Part shown: one piece after another, positions 6,329-58,034 of the stretch
Layout: each line of letters starts with the position of its first letter
Position numbering within the stretch: position 1 is the first letter of the stretch
Assembly (NCBI GenBank): GCA_016213735.1
Contig: JACQZU010000026.1
Coordinates: 1-64,000 of the forward strand
From: Acidobacteriota bacterium
Lineage (GTDB): Bacteria; Acidobacteriota; Holophagae; Holophagales; Holophagaceae
DNA length: 64,000 bases
Direction of reading: 5' to 3'
Notes under the pieces: generated by a model
Told to the model about the DNA's origin: nothing
Seen by the model: the letters and a program-made list of their open reading frames with translations, nothing else
Databases searched by the model: none
Position numbers and translations under genes: made by a program

Positions 6329-6364
6329 TTAAACCCAATCGGGGTCGCCCCGGCCTCGAATTCC

Positions 6365-7072
6365 TCAAGGCTCCAGGGGCCGTTCGGCCTCCACGCCCAA
6401 GGTCCAGCGGTAACCCTCCCCTCCGACCGTGGCAATGTAGGGACGGCCCAGGTCGTCCTCGCCCAGCTTCTTCCGGAGGTTGGCCACGTGGACGTCCACG
6501 GTCCGGGGCGTGGGACGGGCATCGGGCTCCCAGGCCAGGGAGAGGAGTTCGTTGCGGCTGTGGGTCCGGCCAGCGTGGGTGATGAGGATCTCCAGCAGCC
6601 GGAACTCCCTTGGGGTCATGTCCACCAGGCTTCCGTCCCGGAAGGCCTCCAGGGCGGGGAGGTCGAAGCGGAAGGGGCCTGAGCGGAGGACCTGGGCTGG
6701 GGCCTGGGGCTGGGTTCTCCGCAGGATGGCCTTGATCCGGGCCGACAGTTCCAGGACGGAGAAGGGCTTCACCAGGTAATCGTCCGCTCCGATGCTGAGT
6801 CCCTTCACGCGGTCCGCTTCTTCGCCCCGGGCGGTGAGCATGAGCACCGGGACGGGGTCCTTCCGCTGGCGGAGGGCTGCCAGCACCTGGAAGCCGTCCA
6901 TGGCGGGCAGCATCAGGTCGAGGATGATGAGGTCCGCCCGCCGGCTTTGGTGGGCGGCGAGGGCGGGGATCCCGTCCTCAACCGCGTCCACGGAATACCC
7001 CTCGAACCCGAGGTTGTTCACCAGGAGCTGGCGAAGGCTTGGCTCGTCCTCCACGACCAGGATGTGGACCAT
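6365..7072 (-). CDS. OmpR/PhoB-family response regulator
   Basis: Two-component DNA-binding regulator of 235 residues. The receiver domain occupies residues 1-115, with the acidic pair in VVEDEP, the phosphoacceptor Asp52 in IILDLMLPAMDGF, and the switch Lys in DDYLVKPFS. A winged-helix output domain follows from about residue 130 (MTPREFRLLEILITHAGRTH, then RTVDVHVANLRKKLG). The start at 7072 was chosen because the receiver fold begins there (MVHILVVEDE); an in-frame ATG further upstream would add 22 residues that do not fit. It is preceded by its histidine kinase partner on the same strand with an 82-base gap. Target genes are unknown. Confidence 0.95.
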   Translation of the reverse strand: MVHILVVEDEPSLRQLLVNNLGFEGYSVDAVEDGIPALAAHQSRRADLIILDLMLPAMDGFQVLAALRQRKDPVPVLMLTARGEEADRVKGLSIGADDYLVKPFSVLELSARIKAILRRTQPQAPAQVLRSGPFRFDLPALEAFRDGSLVDMTPREFRLLEILITHAGRTHSRNELLSLAWEPDARPTPRTVDVHVANLRKKLGEDDLGRPYIATVGGEGYRWTLGVEAERPLEP

Positions 7073-7154: not shown

Positions 7155-8729
7155 TCAAATCGCCCGGATCTCCAGGGTGGCTTCCAGGCCTTGCCCGGGG
7201 GAGGAACCGAACTCCAGACCCCAGCCTTCCCGCTCGGCCACCTGGAACAGCAGCGAAAGTCCGAGGCCCTGCCCCTCCCGGTGGAAGCCTTCCCCCCCGC
7301 CGGCCCGGATCCGCATGAAGGGCTTGCCCAGGGCCTCGAGCTGGGCCGCGTTCAGGCCAGGGCCCTCGTCCGCAACCCGGATGAAGAACCGTTTCCTGGC
7401 CTTCCAGCTTTCCACGGAAACGGTTCCCCGGCCGTGGAAGATCGCGTTTTCGATGAGCGTCTGGAGCGCGGAGCGCAGGGAGGTCAGGGCCGCCAGCCCG
7501 CTGTCCGGGGAGAGCCGAAGGTCCAGGCGCCTTCCTTCCGCCTCGAAAACAGGGCGCAGGTCGTCCACCACCTCCGCGATCCAGCCCGAACTCACCTCTC
7601 CTTCGGGGCTGTCGGTGCTGATTCCCCTGATCGCTCTGAGGCCGTTCTCGATGAGGAGCGTCAGTTCGTCCACCTCGGACCCCAGCTTGATCAATTCGGC
7701 GTCGGCCTCGGCCGGGCCCAGCCGGCCCAGACGGAGGGAGTCGCAGCGGAACTTGAGGATGGCCAGCGGAGTCTTCAGGCTGTGGGTGAGGCTGGCCATG
7801 CGATCCGCGTCCAGGATGGCCCGCTGGCGGACCCGGTAGCGGAGCCAGAGGCCCCCAAGCATGGCCAGCCCCACGAAGAGGGCGGCCCCTCGCGCGATCC
7901 ACAGTTGCGTATGGACGCGGAAGCGCATGGCCTTTCGTTCCTTCTCGAATGGGATGCCGACGGGGTCCCAACCGTCGCCGAAGGCCGTGCTCTTCGTGGC
8001 GAGGCAGTAGTACTGGCCCGCAAGGCTCCCGGGATCCGCCTGGATCGCGGGCTCGGCGCCCCAGGGCTGGCGGGGAAGGTCCTCCCGGTCCACCTCGTCG
8101 CTCCGGACCAGGCCCATCCTCATGGAGGGAGCCGGGCCGAGGACCACGCGAAGGGCCCGCTCCACCTCAGGGCTTCCGGGCACCCAGGATTTGATGATCA
8201 CCCGGTCCTCGCCCAGGAGGACCACCGAGGCGACCTTCCCGAAATCGGGATCCTCCTCCCTGGGCGGGTTCCAGTGCTGGAGACTGGCCCGGATGGCCTG
8301 ATCCACCCATCGCCGGTACCTTTCCGCCCTGGAGCCGGAGGAGGCCACATGGAAATGGTCGCCGTCCCGGACCCAAAGCCGGTCGGGCCGGCTCCGGTCC
8401 AGGAGGGCCACCACCAGGGGCTGGGAGCTGAGGTAGGCCGCCACCTCCGGGGTGTCCCCCCGCTCGAATTTCGGCAGGGGCGGCATGCTCTGCCAGTGGC
8501 GCTCGATGTTGAGCATGTCGCCCCAGTGCGCGTTGCTGAAGGCGGCCACTTCCCGTTCGGCAAAACTGACAGACCAGAAGTAGGGCGCCCGGTAGAGCAC
8601 GTACACCAGGGCCAGGCCCGCCACGATCATCAGGCCTGCGCCAATCGGCATCATCAGGCGGCGCCACAGGGAGGCCCGGTCCTCCTTGAGGCGATGGGGC
8701 CGGAAGCGGGTGACCCGCCGCGAGGGCAT
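7155..8729 (-). CDS. Membrane sensor histidine kinase
   Basis: A 524-residue sensor kinase that should phosphorylate the adjacent OmpR-type regulator. A first membrane helix lies near residues 26-46 and a second just before residue 290 (LFVGLAMLGGLWLRYRV), enclosing a periplasmic sensor region of about 230 residues with no recognised domain. The H-box LTHSLKTPLAIL has the phosphoacceptor His316. The ATPase domain shows LIENAIFHG (N-box), ADEGPGL (G1) and GQGLGLSLLFQVAE (G2). The start codon overlaps the nadA stop by one base (TGATG), so the two are translationally coupled. The signal sensed is unknown; the nadA link may be only transcriptional. Confidence 0.94.
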   Translation of the reverse strand: MPSRRVTRFRPHRLKEDRASLWRRLMMPIGAGLMIVAGLALVYVLYRAPYFWSVSFAEREVAAFSNAHWGDMLNIERHWQSMPPLPKFERGDTPEVAAYLSSQPLVVALLDRSRPDRLWVRDGDHFHVASSGSRAERYRRWVDQAIRASLQHWNPPREEDPDFGKVASVVLLGEDRVIIKSWVPGSPEVERALRVVLGPAPSMRMGLVRSDEVDREDLPRQPWGAEPAIQADPGSLAGQYYCLATKSTAFGDGWDPVGIPFEKERKAMRFRVHTQLWIARGAALFVGLAMLGGLWLRYRVRQRAILDADRMASLTHSLKTPLAILKFRCDSLRLGRLGPAEADAELIKLGSEVDELTLLIENGLRAIRGISTDSPEGEVSSGWIAEVVDDLRPVFEAEGRRLDLRLSPDSGLAALTSLRSALQTLIENAIFHGRGTVSVESWKARKRFFIRVADEGPGLNAAQLEALGKPFMRIRAGGGEGFHREGQGLGLSLLFQVAEREGWGLEFGSSPGQGLEATLEIRAI

Positions 8730-9697
8730 CAGCCCAGGTCCAGCATGGCTTGGACCGCCCGGCGGGCCCGGATGCGAAGTCCCTCCTCCAGCGTGATCTC
8801 AGGCTGGAGGTCCCGCAGGGCCAGGTACAGCTTTTCGAGGCTGTTCAATTTCATGTAGGGGCACAGCGAGCAGTTGCAGCCGCTGTCGGCCGGGATGGGG
8901 ATCAGCTCGACCTCGGGCCGGACCTTGCGCATCTGGTGGAGAATGCCCGCCTCCGTGCCGACGATGAAACTCAGGGCGGGTTGCTCCTTCACGAACCGGA
9001 TGAGGGCGGCCGTGCTGCCCACGAAATCCGCCATCCTGCTGACGGTGGCGTCGCACTCGGGGTGGACGATGACCTTGGCGCCGGGATGCTGGGCCATGAG
9101 GGCCGCCAGGCGCTTGGCCGTGAACTGCTCGTGCACGATGCAGAAACCGGGGAAAAGGACCATGTCGCGGCCGGTCTGGCCCATCACCCACTTGCCCAGG
9201 TGGCGGTCCGGGGCGAACACGATCTTCCGGTCCCGGGGGAGGCTCTCCACCACTCGCACCGCGTTGGAGCTGGTGCAGATGATGTCGCTGAGGGCCTTCA
9301 CCCCGGCCGAGCAGTTGATGTAGGACACCACGGCATGGTCCGGGTAGTCCTTCAGCCAGGCCTGGAACTGGTCCGCAGGGCATCGGTCCGCGAGGGAGCA
9401 GCCGGCGTCCAGGTCGGGCAGGACCACGCGCCGGTCCGGGCTCAGAATCTTGGCCGTCTCGGCCATGAAGTGGACCCCGCAGAAGGCGATGACCTCGGCA
9501 CCGGTCCGGGCCGCCTGCTGGCTGAGCTGCAGGCTGTCCCCCACGAAATCCGCCAGGTCCTGGATCTCGGGTTCCTGGTAGTAGTGGGCCAGGATGACCG
9601 CCCCGCGCTCCTTCCGGAGCCGCTGGATCTCGGCCACGAGGTCGAGGGAGGGATCGATGCTTCCGAGATCCGGGACGTAGGGGAGGGGAGCGGGCAT
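8729..9697 (-). CDS. nadA: Quinolinate synthase A
   Basis: [4Fe-4S] enzyme of de novo NAD synthesis that condenses iminoaspartate with dihydroxyacetone phosphate to quinolinate. The 322-residue length fits the NadA family. Diagnostic segments are ILAHYYQEPEIQDLADFVGD near the N terminus, FCGVHFMAETAKILSP, LPDLDAGCSLADRCP, SYINCSAGVKALSD, VHPECD and SGCNCSLCPYMKLN; the Cys residues of the GCSLAD, NCSAG/HPEC and CNCSLC regions include the cluster ligands. It is followed without gap by the histidine kinase and preceded by a short ORF nine bases upstream. No nadB or nadC is present in the window, so the pathway is completed elsewhere. Confidence 0.97.
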   Translation of the reverse strand: MPAPLPYVPDLGSIDPSLDLVAEIQRLRKERGAVILAHYYQEPEIQDLADFVGDSLQLSQQAARTGAEVIAFCGVHFMAETAKILSPDRRVVLPDLDAGCSLADRCPADQFQAWLKDYPDHAVVSYINCSAGVKALSDIICTSSNAVRVVESLPRDRKIVFAPDRHLGKWVMGQTGRDMVLFPGFCIVHEQFTAKRLAALMAQHPGAKVIVHPECDATVSRMADFVGSTAALIRFVKEQPALSFIVGTEAGILHQMRKVRPEVELIPIPADSGCNCSLCPYMKLNSLEKLYLALRDLQPEITLEEGLRIRARRAVQAMLDLG

Positions 9698-45174: not shown

Positions 45175-46983
45175 TCAACGCCCCTGGGCCACCTGCCTCT
45201 GCCAGGACTGGGCGTAGGCCCCTCCTTGCGACAGAAGCTCGGCGTGGCTGCCCTCCTCCACGATGCGCCCCCGGGCCATCACGTGGATCCGGTCCGCCTG
45301 CATGGCGGTGGTGAAGCGGTGCGTGATCAGCAGCACGGTGCGGCCCGCCGCCAGGCGGCGGAAGCGGTCCAGCCAGTCGGCCTCGCTCCAGCTGTCCATG
45401 GCGCTCGTGGGCTCGTCCAGGATCAGAAGGGGCGCGGGGCTGAGGAAGGCCCGCGCCAGGGCCAGGCGCTGCCACTCCCCCGCGCTCAGCTCCGCTCCCC
45501 CGAACCAGTGCCCCAGCACCGTGTCGTAGCCCCGGGGCAGGCGTCCCACGGGCTCCTCGGCCCCGGCCTCCCGGGCGGCGGCGCGGATGCGTGCGGGATC
45601 CTCGAGGGCCCGCAGATCACTCTGGGCGATGTTCTCGGAAACCGTGGCGTGGTAGTGCACGGGGTTCTGGAACAGGACGGTGATGCGGCGGCGGAGATCC
45701 TCCTGCGGCAGGGTGCGGAGGTCCTCCCCGGCGAAGAGCACGCGGCCGCCCTCGGGATCATGAAAACGGCAGAGCAGCTTGACGAGGGTGCTCTTGCCGG
45801 CCCCGTTCTCCCCCACGATGGCCGCCACGGAGCCCGGGGGCACCCGGAGTTCGAAGTTGTCCAGGGCCCAGGCCTCGCTGCCCGGGTAGCGGAAGCGGAC
45901 CGCCTCGAAGGCCAGCCCGGGAGCTCCAGCGGGGACACGGCGCGGCGGCGGCGGGGGGTCCAGGAGGGCCGGCCGGAGGTCCAGGAATTCGAAGAGGTTT
46001 TCCAGAAACAGCATGTTGCGGAAGATCTCCCCGGCCTGACCCAGGAGGGTGTGCAGGAGGCGCTGACCCTGGAAGAAGACCTGTGCGAAGAGGGCCAGGT
46101 CCCCCAGTCCCGCCTGGCCGCCCTGGGTCCGGGCCACCATCCAGGCGAGACCGGCCACCGCCCCGGCCACCGCCACCAGCCCGGCGGCCAGGCTGCCGCG
46201 AAGCTCGGTCCCCGCGAGAGCCGACTGCTCGCCCCGGAGCAGGCGGCGGAGATCCTGGAACGCCTCCTGGTAGGGGGCACCGAGGCGGAACAGGCGCAGC
46301 TCCATGGCGGCGTCGCGCTCCGTGAGCAGCCAGTCGAAGTAGTTCGCCCGCCTCAGGTCCGGGGTCCGGCGCCGCCGCCAGGCGTGCTGGCGCAGGGCGT
46401 TGCGCGCCACCACTGCGAGGGCCGGGAGCATGGATCCCGCCAGGAGCAGGGGGAGCCAGGGCGCGAAGCGGAGCAGCAGCACCGCCATCACGGCCAGGGT
46501 CAACCCGTTCTGCAGCAGGGCCCCCAGATTCTCGAGCAGCAGGAGCGGACGGGTCACCGCGTCCACCTTGGCGCGGTGCAGCTGATCGTAATATTCGGGG
46601 GTCTCCAGCAGACCCAGGTCCAGGCGCTGGGCTTGGGCGTGAACCAGGCCCAGCACGTGGTCCTGGATGCGCTCGGACTGGAGCGTCCGGGCCCAGCGGG
46701 CCAGGCCTTCCAGGGCCTGGACCAGGAGCAGCGCCAGACCCAGCAGACCCACCAGGAAGAGCACCGAACCCAGGTCCCCGCCGCCCACCAGGGCGTCCAC
46801 CAGTCTCTTCACGAGCAGCACGGGGACCACCGGCAGGAGGCCCATCAGCAGAAGCAGCCCCAGGGAACCCCACATCCAGCCCCCGGCGGATTCCCGCACC
46901 AGGCCGAAGGCCCGGGGCACGAAGGGAAGTTGCTTCAGGGCACGGCGGATCCAGGAGGAGGCCGCCACCGGAGCGGAGGACAT
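45175..46983 (-). CDS. ABC transporter, fused permease-ATPase; lasso-peptide exporter candidate
   Basis: A 602-residue half-transporter of the type called LasD/McjD in lasso-peptide clusters, which pumps the finished peptide out and can give self-immunity. The N-terminal 320 residues hold about six membrane helices. The ATPase domain has the Walker A GENGAGKSTLV near residue 398, the signature LSAGEWQRLALARAF, and the Walker B LLILDEPTSAMD. It lies next to the nucleotidyltransferase gene but on the opposite strand, 100 bases apart, so the two diverge from a shared control region. The cluster context supports the export role; the substrate is an inference. Confidence 0.85.
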   Translation of the reverse strand: MSSAPVAASSWIRRALKQLPFVPRAFGLVRESAGGWMWGSLGLLLLMGLLPVVPVLLVKRLVDALVGGGDLGSVLFLVGLLGLALLLVQALEGLARWARTLQSERIQDHVLGLVHAQAQRLDLGLLETPEYYDQLHRAKVDAVTRPLLLLENLGALLQNGLTLAVMAVLLLRFAPWLPLLLAGSMLPALAVVARNALRQHAWRRRRTPDLRRANYFDWLLTERDAAMELRLFRLGAPYQEAFQDLRRLLRGEQSALAGTELRGSLAAGLVAVAGAVAGLAWMVARTQGGQAGLGDLALFAQVFFQGQRLLHTLLGQAGEIFRNMLFLENLFEFLDLRPALLDPPPPPRRVPAGAPGLAFEAVRFRYPGSEAWALDNFELRVPPGSVAAIVGENGAGKSTLVKLLCRFHDPEGGRVLFAGEDLRTLPQEDLRRRITVLFQNPVHYHATVSENIAQSDLRALEDPARIRAAAREAGAEEPVGRLPRGYDTVLGHWFGGAELSAGEWQRLALARAFLSPAPLLILDEPTSAMDSWSEADWLDRFRRLAAGRTVLLITHRFTTAMQADRIHVMARGRIVEEGSHAELLSQGGAYAQSWQRQVAQGR

Positions 46984-47083: not shown

Positions 47084-48181
47084 ATGGTGCTTCGCTCCTG
47101 GCTGGTGGCGCTGATGCGCGGTGAAGGCCCCCCGGCGGGTCCCCCGGGAGACCTTCCACCCCAGGCCTGCCTCCAGGCGGCCCAGGTCGAAGGGGTGGTG
47201 GCCCTCGTCCATTCGCGGCTGCAGGACCGGGCCATCGCGTCTCTGGCGACGCCCGAACTGCAGGATCTCTTCGCCGCCGCGGCCCGGGAGCGGGCGGCGC
47301 GGAGCCTCCTGCTCCAGGCCGAGACCCGGCGGGTCCTGAAATGCTTCGAGGCGGGATCCATCCCCGTGCTGGTGATCAAGGGATCGGCCCTGGCCCACTG
47401 GTTGTACTCCACCCCCCACCTGCGGGAGTGCGAGGACGTGGACCTGCTGTTCCCCAGCCGGGAAGACGTGCAGCGGGCCGCCGAGCTCCTCCGCCCCGAA
47501 GGCTACGACTGGCTGGGGCCCGCCGGCGACCTGGCCCGCTGCGAGGCCACCTGCACCCGGGTGCCGGAGGCGGGGCCGTCCCTGGAACTGGACCTGCACT
47601 GGGACATCGGCGGGAGTCCGGTCTACGAGCGCCGCTTCTCCTTCCAGGAGCTGGCCGAGGAAGCCCTGCTTCTGCCCTCCCTCGCCGAAGGGGCCCGGGG
47701 CCTGGGCCCCGTCCATGCCCTGGTCCACGCCGCCCTGCACCGGGCCCTCCAGCTCTGGATGGGCACGGGTGACCGTCTCAAGTGGCTCTTCGATTTCCAC
47801 GAAATGGCCCGCCGTTTCACGGAAGCGGAATGGGACGAGCTCCTCTCCCTGGCCCGTGAGAAGGGGCTCTGCGGCACCTGCCTGCACGCCCTCCGGGCCT
47901 CGGAACGCACCTTCGGCACGCCGCTCCCCCTGGAGGTCCTGGAGGGATTGCAGCGGCGTGCGCCGGAGGAGGGCCTGGACCTGGCCCGCATGGATCGCTG
48001 GGGCTACCTGCAGCGCATGAACTTCCGGGCCCTGCCCGGGCCGCGGCTGAAGCTGAGGTGGCTGCGCCAGCGCCTCCTGCCGCCGGGGGCCTACCTGCGG
48101 CACCACTTCGGCGGAGCCGGGGGGACCCCCGCCGCCCTCTTGCGCTACCTCGGCACGGGCCTGCGGAACCTGGGGAAGTGA
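47084..48181 (+). CDS. Nucleotidyltransferase-family protein (PF14907-like) of the lasso cluster
   Basis: A 365-residue protein with the fold of NTP_transf_5 nucleotidyltransferases: IKGSALAHWLYSTPHLRECE with EDVDLLF near residue 120 supplies the GS and DxD acidic motifs, and LDLHWDI near residue 165 adds the third acidic patch. Proteins of this family are often found in lasso clusters that also have an HprK-like kinase. In the pseudomycoidin system the kinase phosphorylates the peptide and the nucleotidyltransferase-like enzyme adds hexose to that phosphate. A similar role here is inference. GGAGG lies about ten bases before the ATG. The next gene starts 44 bases downstream. Confidence 0.8.
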   Translation: MVLRSWLVALMRGEGPPAGPPGDLPPQACLQAAQVEGVVALVHSRLQDRAIASLATPELQDLFAAAARERAARSLLLQAETRRVLKCFEAGSIPVLVIKGSALAHWLYSTPHLRECEDVDLLFPSREDVQRAAELLRPEGYDWLGPAGDLARCEATCTRVPEAGPSLELDLHWDIGGSPVYERRFSFQELAEEALLLPSLAEGARGLGPVHALVHAALHRALQLWMGTGDRLKWLFDFHEMARRFTEAEWDELLSLAREKGLCGTCLHALRASERTFGTPLPLEVLEGLQRRAPEEGLDLARMDRWGYLQRMNFRALPGPRLKLRWLRQRLLPPGAYLRHHFGGAGGTPAALLRYLGTGLRNLGK

Positions 48182-48225
48182 GGCCCGGGACCCCTGCTGG
48201 ACAGTCTTCCCGGGGGCGTGGTGTC

Positions 48226-49251
48226 ATGGCCGCCATGGACGAGCCCCGGCTGCTGGCCTCCCTCGAGGATTCGGGCCCCCTGGCGGTCTTCGAGGGCTTT
48301 CCCCGGGAGGACCTGGAGCGCCTTTTCGGCGGCTGGCGCCTCCGGTGGGGGCTGGCTGCCGAGGGCCCCGAGGCCCTCTATCGCATCCAGCGGATCCCCT
48401 GGTCCGGGCCGGAGGAAGGCGCCGCCCTTCCCGGGGCCCGGGAGGGGCACCTCCAGTGGATGCCCGGGGAGGAGGACACCCTTTCCGGGACCGGCGGCCG
48501 ACTCCGCCTCGCCCCCGGACGCCCCCTAGCCCGGGTGGCCGTGGACCCGGCCTGCGCGGAGGGCGGGGCCCTCGGGGACCTGCTCGGCGCCGCCCTGATG
48601 CACGCCTTGGCCCTTCAGGGACGCCTGGCCCTCCACGGCATGGCGGCCCTCCTGGGCGGGACGGGCGTGGTGGCCCTGGGGGATTCCCAGTCCGGGAAGT
48701 CCACCCTGGCCCTGGCCTGCCTCCGGGCGGGGGGGAGGATCCTCACCGACGACCACCTCCTGGTGGACCCCGCCTCCCGCCCTCCAGGGCTGCGGGCCCT
48801 GCGCCGGGACCTCCGCCTGCGCGGGGGCAGCCGCTCCCTGGTTCCCTCCGCCCTGGCCCCCCTGCTCCAGGAGGAGGACCCCCCGGGCCGCTGCTTCCTG
48901 CCTCGCGATGCCGCGCCCCAGGCCTTTCTGGAATCCCTCACCCCCCAGCGACTCCTGATCCTGGCCCCGGACCCCCGTCCTTCCCGCCTGGAAGTGGTCC
49001 CCCTGGAGCAGGCCCGGACCCTGTCTGGTGCGCTGCGGGCTGCCAGCCCCCTCTTCCACAGCGGGCGCTACGCGGCCGAGCGGGCGGGGCTGTGGCCCAG
49101 TCTCCAAGCCTTGGTGGAACACCTCCCCAGTTTCCTGGTGGCCCTGGGTCCCGACCTGCTGGCCGACCCGGAAGGGGTCCTGGCGGAGCTGCTGGAACAG
49201 ACCGCGGGGGGGCCCGGAGGCCCCCCCGCCGGGTCCCAATCCCCTCAATAA
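48226..49251 (+). CDS. HprK-like serine kinase of the lasso cluster
   Basis: A 341-residue protein related to the C-terminal kinase domain of HPr kinase. The P-loop GDSQSGKST lies near residue 150, followed by GGRILTDDHLLVDP, the segment holding the acidic residues that bind magnesium in HprK-type kinases. Relatives in paeninodin-type clusters phosphorylate the C-terminal Ser of the precursor. The core proposed here has no C-terminal Ser, only Ser3, Thr5 and Thr13, so the target residue is unclear. The stop codon overlaps that of the convergent secreted-protein gene by seven bases. The ATG at 48226 was chosen; another in-frame ATG is nine bases downstream. Confidence 0.82.
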   Translation: MAAMDEPRLLASLEDSGPLAVFEGFPREDLERLFGGWRLRWGLAAEGPEALYRIQRIPWSGPEEGAALPGAREGHLQWMPGEEDTLSGTGGRLRLAPGRPLARVAVDPACAEGGALGDLLGAALMHALALQGRLALHGMAALLGGTGVVALGDSQSGKSTLALACLRAGGRILTDDHLLVDPASRPPGLRALRRDLRLRGGSRSLVPSALAPLLQEEDPPGRCFLPRDAAPQAFLESLTPQRLLILAPDPRPSRLEVVPLEQARTLSGALRAASPLFHSGRYAAERAGLWPSLQALVEHLPSFLVALGPDLLADPEGVLAELLEQTAGGPGGPPAGSQSPQ

Positions 49252-49982
49252 CGAATGATCAGGTTGCCGTAGCAGAGTTCGAAATTGGTATGTGCAATGC
49301 CCGTGGCGGCCATCACCCGCACCGTCACCGCGTTCGCCCCGGGCACAATTCCGGTGACCCAGCCGGTGTAGGAGATCAGCGAACTGGAGCCCCGGCCGTC
49401 CGTGGGGCGGGTGGCGAGGAATGGAAGCTGGTCGCTGTTGGCGCAGTAGCCCATGGCAGGGCTTCCGCCTTGCGTCTGTTCCACAATGACGATCAGGGCG
49501 ATTCCGTCCACCGCGCCCCCGATTTCGTCTCCCAGGTTCACCTGCGCGGTGTAGGTCACCTCCAGGTTGGCGGAGGTGGGATTGCTCAAGGTGGCCGTGA
49601 ACAGGGTCGTGAAGTCTCCAGGTATGGGCGGATAGGTGCCCCCCCAGACCCCGACCTGGGTGCACCCATAGGTCGCACTGGGATCCTGGGTGTAGTAGTC
49701 CACCTTGGCGGTCAAGGGGGTCTGACCCGTGAGGGAGAGGGGCGCGACGATGGCGGGTTGGGGGGCGCCCAACCTCCCGGTCGGAATGGCAGGTCCTCCC
49801 GTCTTGAGCGGAATTCCGTGGAGCTTGAAAAAGTCCACCAGGGTCTTGGGCTGGCTTCCGGCCGGGGGGGCGCTGCCCCCGCTTCCGGTTCCCACCCCTG
49901 AAAGGGCCTGGGCATTCATCACTGCGCCCCCCGCGAGCAGGAAGGCGAGTGCTGTTCCGTGGAACTTCCGGGCCATTGACAT
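49245..49982 (-). CDS. Secreted protein of unknown function inside the lasso cluster
   Basis: A 245-residue protein with a signal peptide (GTALAFLLAGGAVMNAQA). The mature part begins with a Gly/Ser/Pro linker (VGTGSGGSAPPAGS), a short stretch FFKLHGIPLKTG, and then beta-rich segments such as VTYTAQVNLGDEIGGAVDG, with Cys in YGCTQVGV, GYCANSD and ELCYGN. No known family was recognised. The start at 49982 was chosen for a GGAGG eight bases upstream; a longer frame begins at 50009. It lies 46 bases downstream of the cyclase on the same strand, so it is probably cotranscribed. A role as immunity, target or carrier protein cannot be judged from sequence. Confidence 0.75.
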   Translation of the reverse strand: MSMARKFHGTALAFLLAGGAVMNAQALSGVGTGSGGSAPPAGSQPKTLVDFFKLHGIPLKTGGPAIPTGRLGAPQPAIVAPLSLTGQTPLTAKVDYYTQDPSATYGCTQVGVWGGTYPPIPGDFTTLFTATLSNPTSANLEVTYTAQVNLGDEIGGAVDGIALIVIVEQTQGGSPAMGYCANSDQLPFLATRPTDGRGSSSLISYTGWVTGIVPGANAVTVRVMAATGIAHTNFELCYGNLIIRY

Positions 49983-50028
49983 GATTCCTCCGCGCTGTTT
50001 CACGAACATCCTGCCGCCGGGGATGGGT

Positions 50029-50199
50029 TCACCCCTTGCGCAGGGTCCTGAGGCCGTCCCTCACGCCCGTGGGACTCCCCCCGGCCACAACCTGCTCCAG
50101 GGGGCTGGCCTCGAGGCGTGGTTTTTCGTAGGGGAGAAGGCCATCACGAATGATGTCGGGATTCCCAGGGAGGGTTGGATTGGGACGGGCTTCGTACAT
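50029..50199 (-). CDS. Candidate lasso-peptide precursor, in frame with the cyclase C terminus
   Basis: A 56-residue unit MYEARPNPTL...RTLRKG. An ATG at 50199 has GGAG five bases upstream (50208-50205), so it may also start by itself inside the cyclase gene. Residues 24-41 read YEKPRLEASPLEQVVAGG and carry the YxxPxL leader motif recognised by PqqD-like B1 proteins, with spacing like that of paeninodin-family leaders (KPxLE...AGxG). The proposed core is GGSPTGVRDGLRTLRKG: Gly1 and Asp9 would form a nine-residue ring, leaving an eight-residue Arg/Lys-rich tail. Cleaving after the first Gly gives Gly1-Asp8 instead. Position -2 is Val where Thr is usual. Similarity is seen by eye only. Confidence 0.55.
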   Translation of the reverse strand: MYEARPNPTLPGNPDIIRDGLLPYEKPRLEASPLEQVVAGGSPTGVRDGLRTLRKG

Positions 50200-52032
50200 G
50201 GCGACTCCGGGCGTGCCAAAGGCCTTATCGGCAAAGCTGTCCATGCAGTATAGATCCCACCCAAGAGAAAAACCACTTACGGGCCCCCAATATTTCTTTG
50301 GGAAATCTTGAACCCAGGTGGGATCCAGGAATCCCGCCCTGGCCAGGACACCTCGGGAAAGATCCCAGCCTCGGGCCAGGATCTCCCGGCAGGGTTCCTT
50401 GAAGCTGCTGTCGAAGGCCGTCTTGTCCGGGCGCAGGCGGACGGCCTCCGGCAGAAGGCCCCGGGCGGCCCGGCGAAGGAGGTGCTTGGTCTGGCCCTCC
50501 GCCAGGTGGAACCGGGGGGGAACCGAGAAGGCAAATTCCGCCAGGTCCACGTCCAGCAGTGGATGGCGCAGTTCCAGGCCCAGGGCGGCGCCGTGCTGCT
50601 CCAGGGCCTCGTAGGTCTCCCCTCCGCAGAGGGTGAGGAAATTCTCGAAGAGCTCTCTGACGCTCCACGGGCAAGAGGGGACCTCATCGGACCGGAAGCT
50701 TCGAGTTCGGACGGCCAGGAGATCGGAGGCCCCCTGACTGAGCCAGGGGCGGCCCTGGCTCAGGCCCAGGCGGCGGCGCAGCGCCAGGCGGGGGCGGAGC
50801 ACGCGGCCCCAGAGGGCCCCGGCCCGGGTACACCCCTCCGGAAGGGGAAGGGTCAGGAAATCCCTCAGGGCCTCGAGGGGATGCCCCGCCAGGAGATGGT
50901 CCAGGACCGCATGAACACTGCCCTGGAACCACTCGTCCCCCCCCAGTCCCACGAGCAGGACGGGGATCCCCAGGTCGTGGGCCCGCGCCCCGAGGAGGTC
51001 CAGGTGGTACAGGGTTCCAGCCGGTGGCCAGTCCCCGGCCTCCAGTTGCCTCGGCAGGAAGGTCAGGGGATCGGTCCCCCGGGCCGCGATCCGTTCTCCG
51101 GCGATCCCGGTGTGGGCCGCCACCGCCTCGATGAAGGGCGACTCGTCGCAGGAGGGATCCGCGGGAAACACCAGGGACAGGGGGACCCCCCGGCCGGCCC
51201 CCCCGGGGTCCACGCCTTCCAGATTCCGGGCCAGGGTCCAGACCGTGGTGGAATCCAGGCCCCCGCTCATGGCCACGCCGTAGGGCCCCTGCGGCAGGGC
51301 CCGGGCCACGGCCCGCTCCAGGAGGGCCCGGAGTTCCTCGGCGAGTTCGTCCAGGCTGCGTTCCGGACTCCCCTGGGGCTCGCGGGGCAGCCAGAAGCGG
51401 GTCAGGCTCTGCCGACCCGTGGGGCCCCAGCGGAGGCAGTGGGCCGGGGGCACGCGGTTCACGCCCTCCCAGACCGTTTCCTCGTGGACAAGCGGCACCC
51501 GCCCAACCAGTTCCACGAGCACGGGCAGGTGGAGGCGCCCCCCCGTCCCCGCCGCCGCGAGGGCCTGGCGGATCTCGGTGGCGAGGATCAAGAGGGGGCC
51601 GGTCGGATGGACGTAGAGGGGCCTCGTGCCCAGGTGGCCGCGGACCGCGTGGAGGGAGCACTCGGAGGTGTCCGCCGCCACCGCGGCGAACTCCCCCCGG
51701 GCCGCCCGGAGGAAGGATTCTCCGTGGCGGGAGTAGAAGCGGGCGAAGCGCTGGGCTCCATTCCATTCAGGAGGGAAGGGGACCCCGAAGCTCCGGGCCA
51801 GGTCCTCCCAGTTCCCGATCCACCCATGGAAGGCCACCCGCCAGGGACCGTCGGCCCCCAGGCCGGCCTCGTCTCCGTGGGCCTGGATCCCCAGGATCCC
51901 CTGGGGCAGTGCCAGGGAAGCCGGTGCGCCGCGGTGGGGCGACCGCGCCACGCCCCGGGCGAAGGCCGCGCGGGCCCCGGCCAGGGCGTCGGGTCCGGCC
52001 CCGCTGGAGAGCACGGCCAGGATCGCTCCCAC
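50029..52032 (-). CDS. Lasso cyclase (asparagine-synthetase-like, LasC) with precursor-like C-terminal extension
   Basis: A 667-residue ATP-dependent macrolactam synthetase. The N-terminal part is asparagine-synthetase glutaminase-like, but it starts MGAILAV without the catalytic Cys2, as in lasso cyclases. The AMP-forming domain has the PP-loop SGGLDSTT (residues 256-263), a LVFPADPSCDESPFIEA-type segment, and GLGGDEWFQG. The normal enzyme probably ends near DLYCMDSFADKAFG (about residue 607). The next 56 residues (612-667) resemble a lasso precursor and are listed separately. The start codon is GTG, four bases after the PqqD stop. Residues 1-607 match the usual length of about 600. Confidence 0.88.
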   Translation of the reverse strand: MGAILAVLSSGAGPDALAGARAAFARGVARSPHRGAPASLALPQGILGIQAHGDEAGLGADGPWRVAFHGWIGNWEDLARSFGVPFPPEWNGAQRFARFYSRHGESFLRAARGEFAAVAADTSECSLHAVRGHLGTRPLYVHPTGPLLILATEIRQALAAAGTGGRLHLPVLVELVGRVPLVHEETVWEGVNRVPPAHCLRWGPTGRQSLTRFWLPREPQGSPERSLDELAEELRALLERAVARALPQGPYGVAMSGGLDSTTVWTLARNLEGVDPGGAGRGVPLSLVFPADPSCDESPFIEAVAAHTGIAGERIAARGTDPLTFLPRQLEAGDWPPAGTLYHLDLLGARAHDLGIPVLLVGLGGDEWFQGSVHAVLDHLLAGHPLEALRDFLTLPLPEGCTRAGALWGRVLRPRLALRRRLGLSQGRPWLSQGASDLLAVRTRSFRSDEVPSCPWSVRELFENFLTLCGGETYEALEQHGAALGLELRHPLLDVDLAEFAFSVPPRFHLAEGQTKHLLRRAARGLLPEAVRLRPDKTAFDSSFKEPCREILARGWDLSRGVLARAGFLDPTWVQDFPKKYWGPVSGFSLGWDLYCMDSFADKAFGTPGVAMYEARPNPTLPGNPDIIRDGLLPYEKPRLEASPLEQVVAGGSPTGVRDGLRTLRKG

Positions 52033-52036
52033 GGGC

Positions 52037-52396
52037 CTAGCCCTTCCCCCGGAGGACCAGCCGGGCTTCCAGGCCGGCCATGAATTCAGCCGCGTCCTCC
52101 CTGGCCTGCCCGGGCTCCACGGCGAAGCGCTGCGTCAGACGCTCGGCCAGGAGCCCCGCCTCCGTCACGCCCTCCAGCAAGGCTCCCACCAGCACTTCGC
52201 CGGTGGCGTTGAGCGCGAGGATCTGCTCGCCGTGGATGTCCAGCAGGACCCCGGTGCCATCCGCCAGGGAGGCGTGGGAGCAGCGCTCGGAGGCAAGGAT
52301 GGCCGCCAGCTTGGCAAGGTCCGTCACGGGGGGCTCCAGCGGGGGAAGGCAGGGAAGGTGGGTCTCCATTCTGGCATTGGGGGTCTTATCCCTCAT
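52037..52396 (-). CDS. PqqD-like leader-binding protein (lasso B1, RRE domain)
   Basis: A 119-residue protein whose central part, GVLLDIHGEQILALNATGEV, has the PqqD pattern of strands and helix, with the xxLNxTGxxV motif of RiPP recognition elements. In lasso systems this B1 protein binds the leader peptide and hands it to the B2 protease and the cyclase. Its first 30 residues (PCLPPLEPPVTDLAKL) are not conserved. The start at 52396 was chosen because the ATG overlaps the B2 stop codon (ATGA); an internal ATG nine residues later is possible. The cyclase starts four bases after its stop. Confidence 0.88.
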   Translation of the reverse strand: MRDKTPNARMETHLPCLPPLEPPVTDLAKLAAILASERCSHASLADGTGVLLDIHGEQILALNATGEVLVGALLEGVTEAGLLAERLTQRFAVEPGQAREDAAEFMAGLEARLVLRGKG

Positions 52397-52845
52397 CCCT
52401 TCCAGGCGCCCGGCTTCTCCTCGAAGGCCAAGTGGTCCAGGGGGCTCGGGTCCAGGGGCACCCCCTCCAATTCAACCCAGGCGTGGGCGTCCAGGCGGCC
52501 CTCCCGGCGCCGGACGCCGATCCTCAGGCAAGGCGCAAGGCCGCGCCGCCGAAGGATGAAATGCACCGCCAGGGCCTGCCGCAGGCAGGTGGCCCGGAGA
52601 AGACCGCGGCGTCCCGCCATCCCCGCCAGGAGGGCCAGGCGTTGCCCCGCCAGGATCTCCACCGCCGTGGCGGCGCGCGGGACCGGGACGGATGAACAGC
52701 GTTCCAGGCACCGGCGGGCCCGGCCCACGCCGGCCAGGCGCACCAGGCCCGCCACGGCCGGCAGAAGGAAGGCGAGGCCCAGCAGAAGGCGCCGCTCCCC
52801 CCAGCTCAGGGCTCGCCAGCGGGTGGACAGGTGGGTCAGGCTCAC
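52393..52845 (-). CDS. Transglutaminase-like leader peptidase (lasso B2)
   Basis: A 150-residue lasso biosynthesis B2 protein (transglut_core3 type) that removes the leader. The catalytic Cys is in RATCLRQALAVHFILRR near residue 92, the His in DAHAWVELEG near residue 125, and an Asp follows in GVPLDPSPLD. A longer frame continues upstream, but the GTG at 52845 fits the family start and sits eight bases after the stop of the upstream dehydratase gene, which suggests cotranscription with it. The order B2, B1, C on one strand is typical of lasso clusters. Confidence 0.9.
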   Translation of the reverse strand: MSLTHLSTRWRALSWGERRLLLGLAFLLPAVAGLVRLAGVGRARRCLERCSSVPVPRAATAVEILAGQRLALLAGMAGRRGLLRATCLRQALAVHFILRRRGLAPCLRIGVRRREGRLDAHAWVELEGVPLDPSPLDHLAFEEKPGAWKG

Positions 52846-52853
52846 GGCTGCCC

Positions 52854-53822
52854 TCAGGGCTCCAGGCCCCGCTCCCCCCGCTCCGCGGCGACCATGCGGG
52901 CCACCACTTCCTCCATGCCTACCGTGGCCGTCCAGCCGAGGCGCTCCCGGGCCCGGCGCGGATCCCCGGCGCCCCCCCGGAGCTCGGTGGGGCGAAGGAG
53001 GCCCGGGTCGGACTCCACATGCTCGCGCCAGTCCAGGCCCACCGCCCCGAAGGCGCAGGCCACGAACTCCTGGAGGGAACGGGATGCTCCCGTGGCGATG
53101 ACGAAGTCCCCCGGTTCCGGCTGCTGCAGCATGCGCCACATGGCCTCCGTGTACTCCGGGGCCCAGCCCCAGTCCCGGCGGATGGCGAGGTTTCCCAGGC
53201 TCAGCTTCCGTGCCTTCCCCGCGGCGATGCGGCAGACGCCCGCCACGATCTTCCGCGTCACGAAGCGTTCCGGACGCAGGGGCGACTCGTGGTTGAACAG
53301 GATCCCCGTGCAGGCGTGGATGCCGTAGGCCTCCCGGTAGTTGGCCACCAGCCAGGTGGCCGTGGCCTTGGCCACGGCGTAGGGGCTGCGGGGCCGGAAG
53401 GGAGTCTCTTCGTCGGCCAGGCCCGCCATGTCGCCGAAGCATTCCCCCGAGCCCGCGTGGTACAGCCGGACCGGGCGCCCCGTGAAGCGGATGGCCTCGA
53501 GGAGGTTCAGGGCCCCGACCGCGATGCTGTCCAGGGTCTCCACCGGCTGGGCGAAGCTCAGCCCCACGGAGCTCTGCCCCGCCAGGAAGTAGACCTCGTC
53601 CGGCTCCGTCCGCTGCAGGGCCTGGAGCACGCTCCTGAAGTCACCCGGGCTGATGGATTCCATCCGCACCTGCTGCAGGATGCCCAGCCGCTCGAGGTTG
53701 GCGAAGGAGGCCAGCTGGGCGTCGCGGCTGGAGCCACTCACCTCGTAGCCCCGGCGGAGCAGCTGGGCCGCCAGGTAGGCCCCGTCCTGTCCGCTGATGC
53801 CGACGATCAGGGCGCGGGTCAT
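52854..53822 (-). CDS. gmd: GDP-mannose 4,6-dehydratase
   Basis: Short-chain dehydrogenase that turns GDP-mannose into GDP-4-keto-6-deoxymannose, a precursor of fucose, rhamnose and perosamine for surface polysaccharides. It has 322 residues. The NADP motif is GISGQDGAYLAAQL at the N terminus, the active-site YxxxK is in SPYAVAKATA, and Gmd signatures are LFNHESPLRPERFVTRKI and LGNLAIRRDWGWAPEYTEAM. It is upstream of the lasso B2 gene by eight bases, but its function belongs with the divergent polysaccharide genes. Confidence 0.93.
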   Translation of the reverse strand: MTRALIVGISGQDGAYLAAQLLRRGYEVSGSSRDAQLASFANLERLGILQQVRMESISPGDFRSVLQALQRTEPDEVYFLAGQSSVGLSFAQPVETLDSIAVGALNLLEAIRFTGRPVRLYHAGSGECFGDMAGLADEETPFRPRSPYAVAKATATWLVANYREAYGIHACTGILFNHESPLRPERFVTRKIVAGVCRIAAGKARKLSLGNLAIRRDWGWAPEYTEAMWRMLQQPEPGDFVIATGASRSLQEFVACAFGAVGLDWREHVESDPGLLRPTELRGGAGDPRRARERLGWTATVGMEEVVARMVAAERGERGLEP

Positions 53823-53949
53823 GGGCAGGCTCCTCGGGGATGGATCCCCTTCAGCTTAGCGAAGGCCCGGGAGCCGGGCGGCGCCGGCCGGTTCCCGGAT
53901 TCAAGCCCGCCCCTGGAGGGGCCGATCGGGTGCTGTCCCGCCGGGCTGG

Positions 53950-53955
53950 TAGAAT
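53950..53955 (+). promoter_or_regulatory. Candidate -10 box before the Wza-type gene
   Basis: TAGAAT, identical to the box proposed for glnA, lies 69 bases before the start codon in the 201-base divergent spacer. A clear -35 is missing. Nothing else is seen in that spacer. Confidence 0.3.
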
Positions 53956-54023
53956 CCCCCAGGTCCACCACCCCACGCCCGCCGGGCGCGCCGGCCACGG
54001 CGCATTCCATCAGGGAGGAAGCC

Positions 54024-55130
54024 TTGTCCGACCTCGCCACCCTCGCCCTTCGGGCCGCGGCCACCCTGGCCCTGCTCCTCTCCGCCGCCTGCGCCCCGGG
54101 CATGAAGCTCAACCTGTCCCCCAGCAAGCCCCAGGAGGACTACCGCATCCAGGGTCAGCACGTCACCCTGCGGCCGCTCTCGCCCCAGGTGGTGCAGGCC
54201 TTCGGGAACCCGGCGCTGAACACCTCCGGGGTGGACGAACTCCTCGCGGTGAAGGCCACGCCCTACCTCATCGGCCCCCAGGACGTGCTCCAGGTGACCG
54301 TGTGGGAGCACCCCGAGCTCACCATCCCCCTGGGCCAGTACCGCACGGACGCCGCCACGGGCCAGCTCGTGGACGAGGAAGGCAACATGTTCTTCCCCTA
54401 CGCCGGCATCCTCAACGTGCAGGGCCAGACCGCCATGCAGGTGCGGGCCAAGCTGGTGGACCGCCTCAGCCGCGTCCTCAAGAGCCCCCAGGTGGACGTG
54501 AAGGTCATCGTCTTCCGCTCCCAGAAGGTCTTCGTGGGGGGCGAGGTCCGGCAGCCCGGCGTGCAGTACATCTCCGACGCCCCCCTGACCCTGGCGGAAT
54601 CCCTGGGCCGGGCGGGAGGCTTCCTCCCCGCGGGGGACGACAGCCGCGTCCAGCTCACGAGGGGCAACCGCTCTTGGGTCATCAACTACTACGGCCTCAT
54701 GCAGAAGGGCAGCCGCTACGGCCAGATCCTCCTCAAGGACGGCGACCACCTCACCGTGCAGGCCCGGGAGGACGAGCCCGTGTACATGCTGGGGGAAGTC
54801 TCCAAGCCCAGCATCGTGCCCCTGCGCCACGGCCGCCTCAGCCTGGCCCAGGCCCTGGCCGAGGCGGGGGGCATGGAGCGCCTCAGTTCCAACGCCCACT
54901 CGGTCTATGTGCTCCGCCGGGGCGCCACCGACGGCAGCGTGGACCTCTTCCACCTCGACGCCAAGAACCCCACGGCCATGGTCCTGGCGGACCGCTTCAA
55001 CCTGAACCCCCGGGACATGGTCTACGTGGACGCCGGGGCCCTGGTGCGGTGGAGCCGCGTGGTCACCATGCTCCTCCCCACCTTCACCAGCCTCAGCCAG
55101 ACCGCGGCGGACGCGAAGTACCTCCGCTAG
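54024..55130 (+). CDS. Polysaccharide export outer-membrane lipoprotein (Wza-type)
   Basis: A 368-residue secretin-like export channel. The signal ends in a lipobox (LLLSAAC, Cys near residue 20), followed by the polysaccharide export (Poly_export) domain from about residue 80: YLIGPQDVLQVTVWEHPELT, with QVDVKVIVFRSQKVFVGGEV, and two SLBB domains (VGGEVRQPGVQYIS and YMLGEVSKPSIVPL). It ends in a likely C-terminal amphipathic helix. The start codon is TTG at 54024, supported by GGGAGG six bases upstream; no ATG or GTG fits as well. The phosphatase and Wzc-like genes that follow are its usual partners. Confidence 0.92.
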   Translation: MSDLATLALRAAATLALLLSAACAPGMKLNLSPSKPQEDYRIQGQHVTLRPLSPQVVQAFGNPALNTSGVDELLAVKATPYLIGPQDVLQVTVWEHPELTIPLGQYRTDAATGQLVDEEGNMFFPYAGILNVQGQTAMQVRAKLVDRLSRVLKSPQVDVKVIVFRSQKVFVGGEVRQPGVQYISDAPLTLAESLGRAGGFLPAGDDSRVQLTRGNRSWVINYYGLMQKGSRYGQILLKDGDHLTVQAREDEPVYMLGEVSKPSIVPLRHGRLSLAQALAEAGGMERLSSNAHSVYVLRRGATDGSVDLFHLDAKNPTAMVLADRFNLNPRDMVYVDAGALVRWSRVVTMLLPTFTSLSQTAADAKYLR

Positions 55131-55140
55131 TGATTTTCCT

Positions 55141-55349
55141 GAACCAGTGATGAACAGTGATGGACGGTGATGCCCACCCGGCCCTGCCCGCCCGCGCAGC
55201 GGGCGCGCGGCCCCAGGGCCGCGCCGGAACGGGGAGCCGGAGCCAGGGCGCGTCGAGGCGCCGGGTCCCCGGCTCCCCGTTCCGGGGCAGGGGCCCCAGC
55301 CCGGAGCGTGCGCCCTCATCACCGTTCATCACCGTTCATCGCCGGTTGA
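55141..55349 (+). repeat. Dispersed palindromic repeat, copy 1
   Basis: About 209 bp with imperfect terminal inverted repeats of some 32 bp, each made of three near-copies of the 10-mer GTGATGAACG. The left end has GAACCAGTGATGAACAGTG and the right end CACCGTTCATCGCCGGTT. The interior is extremely GC-rich with its own inverted segments (for example GGGGAGCCGG and CCGGCTCCCC). No ORF is supported. A second copy, in opposite orientation, is at 58247-58477. It resembles REP/MITE-type elements. Confidence 0.8.
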
Positions 55350-55392
55350 AAATTTTTTTCCCCTCTCCCCGTCCCATGGGCCACCCCCCCGC

Positions 55393-55869
55393 ATGAGCGC
55401 CGCGCCCCTCTTCGCCCTGCGGCGGATCCTGGTGCTCTGCGAGGGGAACCACTGCCGCAGCCCCATCGCGGAGGCCCTGCTCCGGGCCTCCCTGCCGGGT
55501 GTGGCGGTGGAGTCCGCGGGCCTGGGGGCCCTGGAGGGCCACCCCGCCGACGCCGAGGCCCTGCGCCTCCTCGCGGAGAGGGGCCTGGACCACGGCGCCC
55601 ACCGGGGCCGCCAATTCACCCCCGCCATGGCCCTGGAGGCCGACCTGGTCTTCGTCATGGACCGGGACCAGAAGGAGGCCTGCGAGGCCCTCGTGCCCGC
55701 CGCCCGGGGCCGCGTCTTCCTCCTGGGCCACTGGCTCGCGCCGGAGCGCCGGGAGATCCCCGACCCCTTCCGTCGCGGCCCCGAGGCCTTCCGTGCCACG
55801 CTGGAGCACATCGAACAATCCGTGGCGGCCTGGCTGCCCCGGCTCAGCCCCAAGGCCGATCCCGCATGA
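55393..55869 (+). CDS. Low-molecular-weight protein tyrosine phosphatase (Wzb-type)
   Basis: A 158-residue phosphatase of the arsenate-reductase-like LMW family, which dephosphorylates the Wzc kinase and so controls polysaccharide export. The catalytic loop is CEGNHCRS near residue 16 (CX5R form), and the general-acid Asp is in REIPDPFRRG near residue 120. Its last codons overlap the kinase start by four bases (ATGA). No signal peptide, so it acts in the cytosol. It directly follows copy 1 of the palindromic repeat. Confidence 0.93.
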   Translation: MSAAPLFALRRILVLCEGNHCRSPIAEALLRASLPGVAVESAGLGALEGHPADAEALRLLAERGLDHGAHRGRQFTPAMALEADLVFVMDRDQKEACEALVPAARGRVFLLGHWLAPERREIPDPFRRGPEAFRATLEHIEQSVAAWLPRLSPKADPA

Positions 55870-58034
55870 GCCCCAACCGCCCCCCCGATCCCGCCCCCGC
55901 CCCCGAGCACTTCGAGGAGGTCTCCCTCGCCGAATGGCTGGCCAACCTCTGGGACGCGCGCTGGCTCATCCTCGGCGTCACGGCCCTGGTGCTCGCCGCC
56001 ACCGCCTTCTCCCTCTGGACCACCACCCCCATCTACCAGGTGGAGGCCCTGCTCCAGATCGAGGAGAAGAAGAGCAACAACCTGGACCGGGCCCTGGCCG
56101 AGCTGGACGCCTACTACTCCGGCGTCTCCCAGGCCCAGACCGAAATGGAGATCCTCCGCAGCGCCCTGGTGCTGGGCCGGGCCGCCGAGTCCCTGGGCCT
56201 GGACATCCAGGCCCGCCCCGTCCTCAAGCCCGTGGTCGGCGAAGCCCTCATGCGCGGCCGGCCCGATGCCCCGAGGATCGAGGTGGACTCCCTGGTGCTG
56301 CCCGACGCCCTCCGGGGCGTGGGCTTCAGGATCGTCGCCCTGGAGGGCGGCGCCTTCCGCTGGGAGGCCGCCGGGGGCCAGGTGCTGGGCAGCGGCAAGC
56401 CCGGCGAGCAGCTCAGCGCCGCCTACCAGGGGGAGACCCTCCGCCTGCGGGTCCGGAAGCTCCGCGCCGGCCCCGGCCAGGTCTTCACCCTCTCCCGCCA
56501 GGTCCTGCCCGCCGTGGTGGCGGGGCTCCGGGGCGGCTTGGCCGTGGCGGAGCGGGGCCGCCAGACCGGCGTGGTGGGCCTCACCTTCCGCCACCCCGAC
56601 CCCGTGCGGGCCGCGGAGATCCTCAACGAGATCCTGAACCAGTACGTGCGCCAGAACATCGAGCGCAAGTCCGAGGAGGTCTCCAAGACCATCCAGTTCC
56701 TGAACCAGCAGCTGCCCCTGGCCAAGGCCAAGCTGGACGACTCCGAGAACCGCCTCAACAGCTTCCGCATGCGCGCCGGCTCCGTGGACCTGCCCGAGGA
56801 GACTCAGCTCCTGCTCAAGCAGAGCCTGGAGCTGGAGTCCCAGATGCTCACCCTCAAGCAGAAGAAGGACGAGCTGCTGCGCATCTACAAGGAGGACCAC
56901 GACATCGTGGCCACCCTGAACCTCCAGCTGGGCAAGCTGGCCAAGCAGGCCCAGGGCCTGGAGGGCAAGGTGCGGGGCCTGCCCGCCACCCAGCAGGAGG
57001 TGGTGCGCCTCACCCGGGAAGTGCAGGTCAACAACCAGCTCTACACCGCCATGCTCAACAACGTGCAGCAGCTCCAGGTGGTCAACGCGGGCCAGATCGG
57101 CAACGCCCGGGTGGTGGACGTCGCCACCCCGGCCCTGGGCCCCGTGAGCCCCAACGTGCCCCGGGGCATGACCCTCGCCCTGGTGCTGGGCTTGCTGGGA
57201 GGGGTGGGCGTGACCATGCTGCGCAAGCTCCTGCACCAGGCCGTGGACGACCCCCGCCAGATCGAGGCCAAGCTGGGCCTGCCCGTCTTCATCACCATCC
57301 CCCACAGCGCCGCCCAGGAGAGCCTCTACCGGCGGGTGAAGGCCCGGGAGGAGGGCATCCACCTCCTGGCCCACGTGTACCCGGGGGACCTGGCCACCGA
57401 GAGCTTCCGCAGCCTGCGCACCACCCTGAACTTCACCATGGTGGACGCCCCCAACAACGTGATCCTGGTCTCCGGCCCCTCCCCCCACCTGGGAAAGAGC
57501 TTCTTCTGCGCCAACTTCGCCACCATCCTGGCCCAGGGGGAGCGGCGGGTGCTTCTGGTGGACGCCGACATGCGCCGGGGCAACCTCTACCGCTACTTCG
57601 GCCTGCGCCAGCGTCCTACGGGCCTCTCGGAGATCCTCTCCGGCCAGGCGGACTGGAAGAAGGTCGTGCACCACAGCGGCGTGCCCGGCCTGGACGCCAT
57701 CTTCACCGGCGCCCTGCCCCCCAATCCCTCCGAACTGCTCATGACCCCGCGCTTTGCTGACCTTTTTGGGGAGCTGACCCGGGCCTACGACTTCGTGATC
57801 TTCGACGCCCCCCCGGTGCTGGCGGCCACCGACGCCGTGGTCATCGGCGCCAAGGCGGGCACCGTGCTGCTCCTGGCCAAGTCCGGAGAGCATCCCCTGG
57901 ACGAGATCCACACCGCCCTCAAGCGCTTCGGCAATTCCGGCATCCAGGTGAAGGGATGCGTCTTCAACAACGTCCCCGTGGCCGCCGTGGGCTACCGCTA
58001 CTACCGCTACGCCTACCACTACGGCTACAAGTGA
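55866..58034 (+). CDS. Wzc-type chain-length regulator and bacterial tyrosine kinase
   Basis: A 722-residue inner-membrane protein that controls polysaccharide polymerisation and export. The Wzz domain has a first membrane helix near residues 35-55 (LILGVTALVLAATAFSLWTT) and a coiled-coil periplasmic part (about residues 260-400), then a second helix near residue 440. The cytoplasmic kinase has Walker A SGPSPHLGKSFF near residue 540, A' LLVDADMRRG and B FVIFDAPPVLAATDA. The C terminus YRYYRYAYHYGYK is a Tyr cluster for autophosphorylation. Walker A has the degenerate form typical of BY-kinases. Confidence 0.93.
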   Translation: MSPNRPPDPAPAPEHFEEVSLAEWLANLWDARWLILGVTALVLAATAFSLWTTTPIYQVEALLQIEEKKSNNLDRALAELDAYYSGVSQAQTEMEILRSALVLGRAAESLGLDIQARPVLKPVVGEALMRGRPDAPRIEVDSLVLPDALRGVGFRIVALEGGAFRWEAAGGQVLGSGKPGEQLSAAYQGETLRLRVRKLRAGPGQVFTLSRQVLPAVVAGLRGGLAVAERGRQTGVVGLTFRHPDPVRAAEILNEILNQYVRQNIERKSEEVSKTIQFLNQQLPLAKAKLDDSENRLNSFRMRAGSVDLPEETQLLLKQSLELESQMLTLKQKKDELLRIYKEDHDIVATLNLQLGKLAKQAQGLEGKVRGLPATQQEVVRLTREVQVNNQLYTAMLNNVQQLQVVNAGQIGNARVVDVATPALGPVSPNVPRGMTLALVLGLLGGVGVTMLRKLLHQAVDDPRQIEAKLGLPVFITIPHSAAQESLYRRVKAREEGIHLLAHVYPGDLATESFRSLRTTLNFTMVDAPNNVILVSGPSPHLGKSFFCANFATILAQGERRVLLVDADMRRGNLYRYFGLRQRPTGLSEILSGQADWKKVVHHSGVPGLDAIFTGALPPNPSELLMTPRFADLFGELTRAYDFVIFDAPPVLAATDAVVIGAKAGTVLLLAKSGEHPLDEIHTALKRFGNSGIQVKGCVFNNVPVAAVGYRYYRYAYHYGYK

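Follow-up and report, generated by a model that had tools for sequence, protein, structure and literature searches.

The stretch of DNA analysed here, referred to as the window, comprises positions 1-64,000 of contig JACQZU010000026.1 in assembly GCA_016213735.1 of an Acidobacteriota bacterium (Holophagaceae). On its minus strand lies an open reading frame of 667 residues (50029-52032), which begins with a GTG start and encodes in residues 1-606 (50215-52032) a lasso cyclase domain, C, of the Asn-synthase/beta-lactam-synthetase fold. There is no stop codon where the enzyme fold ends, and the frame remains open through a C-terminal tail. Pfam Asn_synthase matches residues 233-581 (1.8e-37), and in NCBIfam the protein is nearest to asparagine synthases and to NF033535, the lasso cyclase model (1.8e-42, below the model cut-off). 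In the AlphaFold model, which was built with 16 homologs and has a pTM of 0.85, the last helix covers residues 585-606 with a pLDDT of about 90, and residues 607-667 are disordered (pLDDT < 50); the closest PDB folds are TsnB9, beta-lactam synthetase and AsnB. Pfam match and fold together identify C as the Asn-synthase type macrolactam synthetase expected of a lasso cluster. Homologous cyclases stop near residues 596-617, compared with residue 667 here, i.e. there are about 60 surplus residues, in agreement with the preliminary description, which had placed the end of this frame some 60 codons beyond that expected for a cyclase.

The surrounding genes supply the rest of a lasso pathway. Upstream of C on the same strand are B1, a PqqD/RRE leader-binding protein (52037-52396, minus strand; PqqD 3.2e-9, over the Pfam cut-off), and B2, a transglutaminase-like leader peptidase (52393-52845, minus strand; NF033537 3.6e-18, 66.2 bits against a cut-off of 33; Transglut_core3 2.1e-17), which is the only B2 in its own genome. 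B1 scores below the cut-offs of all of the lasso PqqD models (9e-10 for NF033530). Nevertheless, both the B2 peptidase and the PqqD-like RRE protein that mark a lasso cluster are present. Beyond the tail lie a secreted protein of unknown function (49245-50009, minus strand, starting at 50009 or at 49982, where the ribosome site is better), an HPr-kinase-like precursor kinase, K (48211-49251, plus strand, start unsettled, at ~48227 or 48236), a PF14907 nucleotidyltransferase, N (47084-48181, plus strand; 1.3e-40), and an ABC exporter, D (45175-46983, minus strand; ABC_tran 1.5e-30). N is 48% identical to its counterpart in the related locus L110, and D is ~51-74% identical to the exporters of L110 and of two further related loci, L211 and L212. 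The match of K to Hpr_kinase_C is weak (3.1e-4, below the cut-off), but K is 42-43% identical to the kinases of L212 and of another related locus, L216, and carries the H..G..GKS..DD residues of BsfK (PMC10368454), the kinase of the bsf cluster of Bradymonas sediminis, which has the gene set BsfA/B1/B2/C/D/K/N (PMC10368454). The presence of K and N beside A-B1-B2-C-D, where K is assigned only through weak family matches and its identity to the ortholog kinases, is what distinguishes a kinase-type (bsf-like) cluster. On the strength of B1, B2, C and the precursor features described below, the cluster in the window is a lasso cluster of the kinase-containing kind; a threaded product and its phosphorylation on Ser3 are inferred. 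The secreted protein has no Pfam family and gives only a low-confidence, beta-rich model (pLDDT 49). Alignment places members of the same family after the precursor gene in three of the four orthologous clusters (L201, L210 and L216), so that in these loci and in the window the family is associated with lasso clusters. On its other side (52854-58034) the cluster adjoins polysaccharide genes (GDP-mannose dehydratase-like and Wza/Wzb/Wzc-like).

Residues 612-667 of the cyclase frame match the precursors of the orthologous clusters and constitute a 56-residue lasso precursor region, A (YEKPRLEASPLEQVVAGGSPTGVRDGLRTLRKG). The leader runs from M612 to A650 (50083-50199, minus strand) and has the YxxPxL motif as YEKPRL at residues 635-640 (50130-50113); the predicted 17-residue core, GGSPTGVRDGLRTLRKG (50032-50082, minus strand), was assigned by alignment to the ortholog cores, of which that of L216 is closest, and closure of its ring is inferred. 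The core places Gly1 at residue 651 (50082-50080) and Asp9 at residue 659 (50058-50056), and it also contains Ser3 provided that Gly651 is Gly1. The leader-like motif and the possible core with Gly1 and Asp9 that had been proposed for the tail can thus be located residue by residue, and the tail has what defines a lasso precursor, i.e. a YxxPxL leader, Gly1 and an Asp or Glu at position 7-9. One further residue separates leader from Asp in comparison with the orthologs, and so an 8-residue ring starting at the second Gly cannot be excluded. Classical lasso peptides (the microcin J25 and paeninodin types) have Thr at position -2 and a separate precursor gene. The tail has Val at -2 (residue 649), which the preliminary description had counted as a weak point; this objection falls away, since Val or Ile occupies -2 in all four orthologs, Ile/Val(-2) precursors have been reported in Bradymonadales, Acidobacteriaceae and Sphingomonadales, and the experimentally examined BsfA of the kinase-type family has Ile(-2) (PMC10368454). 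Thr(-2) is therefore not class-defining. No other open reading frame fitting the precursor pattern was found in the 64-kb window, the first inspection having noted none in the cluster, and the tail has a single match in its own genome.

Orthologous clusters were identified in four Acidobacteriota genomes: G384 (L194/L201), G448 (L209/L211), G462 (L210/L212) and G540 (L215/L216). The closest cyclase in the phylum sample was that of G384 (E 9e-61), and the other three clusters were found by searching the order and class of that genome; a contig scan for cyclases gave, among the matches listed, only distant ones (at most 34% identity). The orthologs share C, B1 and K with the window, and in 4/4 of them a separate precursor gene lies directly 3' of C. 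The spacing between C and A ranges from a gap of 13 nt in L201 (MAKDESKQRRVYAAPTLVVRRLEEVVRGEEGSEPDVYGAATEP), through one of 74 nt in L211 (MTPSANPDPQQGPQTRRVYAPPTIAVSRAHAAIAGGTGPTKEPVVEPGAPDMMA; ~14 nt if an upstream in-frame ATG is used), to an overlap of 20 nt in L212 (precursor ending RRPYEQPLVSGHALDQAVRGNTGSFTDGDPAGFHVG) and of 1 nt, TGATG, in L216 (ending RRGYEPPRFLVVPLIAAVNGAPGSIRDGVTSGRRP). The tail and the four precursors have in common Y(-16), P(-13) and an aliphatic residue or Phe at -11, i.e. Y(-16)xxPx[LIVF] with the same leader spacing, together with Val/Ile(-2), Gly1 and an acidic ring residue, although this last (Asp/Glu) is at position 8 in the relatives and at 9 in the window. 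The precursors are 43-65 residues long, a range that includes the 56 residues of the tail counted from an internal ATG. None of the three outcomes named in advance as fatal to the precursor assignment occurred: the ortholog cyclases do not share the tail, each being tail-less with a separate precursor, the motif and acidic residue are conserved in the relatives, and the window yielded no other precursor open reading frame. What sets the window apart is that in the orthologs C and A are either separate or overlap out of frame. At L201 two tandem B1/PqqD genes lie on the strand opposite C (5606-6406), sugar-transferase and aminotransferase genes stand next to the lasso cluster (7700-9600), and B2 was not detected in the region fetched; the B2 of that genome is on another contig, C37.

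Random open reading frames also give loose matches to the motif, and the tail could in principle be an unrelated C-terminal extension that carries it by chance. Local alignments of the tail to the four ortholog precursors gave a summed score of 169, compared with a maximum of 142 for a background of 2817 C-terminal tails of open reading frames from the window and other loci, none of which (0/2817) reached the tail. Taken singly, the similarity was strong for L216 and L212 and weak for L211. The motif was absent from the last 90 residues of all 137 other Asn-synthase-type open reading frames (124 loci), 29 of which had a separate precursor open reading frame within 400 nt downstream. Searching the phylum with the 56-residue tail returned only chance-level matches (E 0.003-0.1), and tblastn of the tail against plasmids returned none. 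Given the position of the tail, the gene order and the similarity to four ortholog precursors, a chance motif is largely refuted and we attach almost no weight to it.

A more serious concern is that the open frame itself could be an artefact of sequencing or assembly, in which a one-base indel masks the true stop of C and the two genes are in reality separate, as in the relatives. A TAA in another frame lies shortly before the internal ATG and its GGAG, and one changed base in the GGGGG run close to residue 582 would yield the arrangement of the relatives. The homolog HMM, whose scores are unusable past about residue 580, neither confirms the frame there nor rejects the error. However, codon usage supports the frame as it stands both before and after the GGGGG run, with log-odds for the C frame (from the genes of the window) of +17 nats for 541-581, +4.6 for 582-611 and +26 for 612-667. 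The final helix, which is modeled with a pLDDT of about 90, has in this frame an acidic residue 28 positions past LD (or its equivalent) and a hydrophobic pattern, both in common with L201, L209, L210 and L216 (the L216 spacing was counted from the printed sequence), and this pattern is absent in the alternative frame. The junction itself, from the end of the fold to the ATG, contains no run of four or more identical bases; the GGGGG and a TTTTT lie further upstream. Because of the codon usage, the spacing of the final helix and the lack of such a run at the junction, an indel error is unlikely but not excluded. Across the final 60 codons of the cyclase domain, third-position G+C drops from ~0.9 to 0.55 before rising in the tail (50200-50420).

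The tail could be translated separately from an internal ATG (50197-50199, minus strand), where a free 56-residue precursor could begin and which coincides with the start position of A in the orthologs. The preliminary description supported this start by a GGAG five bases upstream (50205-50208, minus strand). Both elements are present at this distance, but as evidence for initiation the GGAG is weak, since comparable ribosome sites precede 78 of the 337 internal in-frame ATGs of the window genes (23%), and we have dropped the argument from the ribosome site. The C frame was found to contain only three in-frame ATGs, and by local folding the region around the internal one ranks in the least structured 10% of the gene. 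A free precursor is probably still made from this ATG, beside a cyclase with a tethered copy, because the ATG sits where A should start; its translation and chemistry are inferred. If instead the ATG were unused, the precursor would exist solely as the tail of the cyclase, in the manner of a borosin, and B2 would clip one core from each enzyme molecule. The continuous coding frame and the unexceptional ribosome site are compatible with this, as are the 44 residues between the end of the fold and Gly1, which are enough to reach a neighbouring or the enzyme's own active site. We nevertheless consider it fairly unlikely, given that the ATG is at the ancestral start of A, that 56 residues is a normal precursor length and that one-to-one stoichiometry would be costly.

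It could also be argued that the fusion is an early step in the loss of the cluster, which would then make no product. Such loss has occurred in a related cluster of the same family, L110 (6300-11200; G010:C158), where B2, B1, D and N remain, most of K and nearly all of C are gone, what is left of K, a fragment, is joined to the N-terminal 31 residues of C (MGAILAILGDS...), and a Phd/VapC-like toxin-antitoxin pair has been inserted in place of C. No separate precursor was found in L110, which fits the loss of A together with C. The B1 gene of L110 is frameshifted at a run of C nucleotides. Although orthologous, this decayed locus could not serve as an ortholog with an intact cyclase gene. In the window, by contrast, all of the partner genes are open with their catalytic motifs kept, and the leader and core motifs are intact, so that decay appears improbable.

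The bsf cluster resembles the window in having A, B1, B2, C, D, K and N, a YxxPxL leader, Ser3 and a ring from Gly1 to Asp, and its Ile(-2) is comparable to Val(-2) here; its kinase phosphorylates Ser3, and B1 and B2 together take off the leader (PMC10368454). It differs in that BsfA is a separate gene with a leader of the form Y(-17)xxP(-14)xL(-12) and Asp8 (PMC10368454), compared with the fused A, Y(-16) and Asp9 of the window, and in that no secreted protein has been described for it. Classical lasso peptides share the B1/B2/C logic and the macrolactam from Gly1, but not Val(-2) or the fused precursor. The fusion, in which the frame of the modifying enzyme continues into its precursor, has its counterpart in the fungal borosins (types I-III): there the methyltransferase itself ends in the core peptide, as in OphMA (PMC8429565; PMC7878506). 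However, the borosin enzyme, an N-methyltransferase, and its chemistry are unrelated, and the borosin fusion is conserved and autocatalytic, whereas the fusion in the window stands alone in a class whose precursors are separate. No fused C-A was seen in any relative, and the fusion is found in one genome only. No description of a lasso cyclase-precursor fusion came to light among the titles and abstracts of open-licence papers, which cover the literature incompletely.

We therefore favour the explanation that the tail is a genuine lasso precursor, that the stop of C was lost so that C reads into A, and that both a tethered cyclase and a free 56-residue precursor are made, and we give this a probability of about two in three. 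That the tail is a precursor follows from the four orthologous clusters, in which a separate precursor gene carrying the shared motifs stands at the corresponding position after the cyclase. The homology and position of the precursor, the continuity of the frame and the intact partner genes are observed, and from these the following course can be proposed. In the ancestor, A would have lain directly after C or overlapped its 3' end, as it does in the orthologs; the stop of C would then have been lost in this lineage, e.g. by one indel, fusing C in frame to A while A kept its own start. Ribosomes would produce a cyclase with the precursor tethered to it and, by inferred initiation at the internal ATG, additional free 56-residue precursor. 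B1 would bind Y635xxP638xL640, K may phosphorylate Ser3 (the kinase site being inferred), B2 would cut after Val-Ala (residues 649-650, an inferred cleavage site), C would join Gly1 to Asp9 in an inferred ring and trap the tail, and D would export the 17-mer. Any role of tethering is likewise an inference, and whether the tether is helpful, harmful or neutral cannot be told from sequence. The stronger proposal, that the C-terminal tail functions as a substrate attached to its own cyclase while a nested start supplies a free copy, and that this represents the first enzyme-substrate fusion in lasso biosynthesis, is possible, but we hold it only tentatively and think it somewhat doubtful.

The relatives show a clear path to this arrangement, from adjacent through overlapping to fused genes. 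Precursor finders seek short, separate open reading frames, and a fused or nested precursor would therefore escape them. If the fused protein works, the core would be released beside its own cyclase, and the protein would provide a simple single-chain tool for studying how the cyclase folds and threads its substrate.
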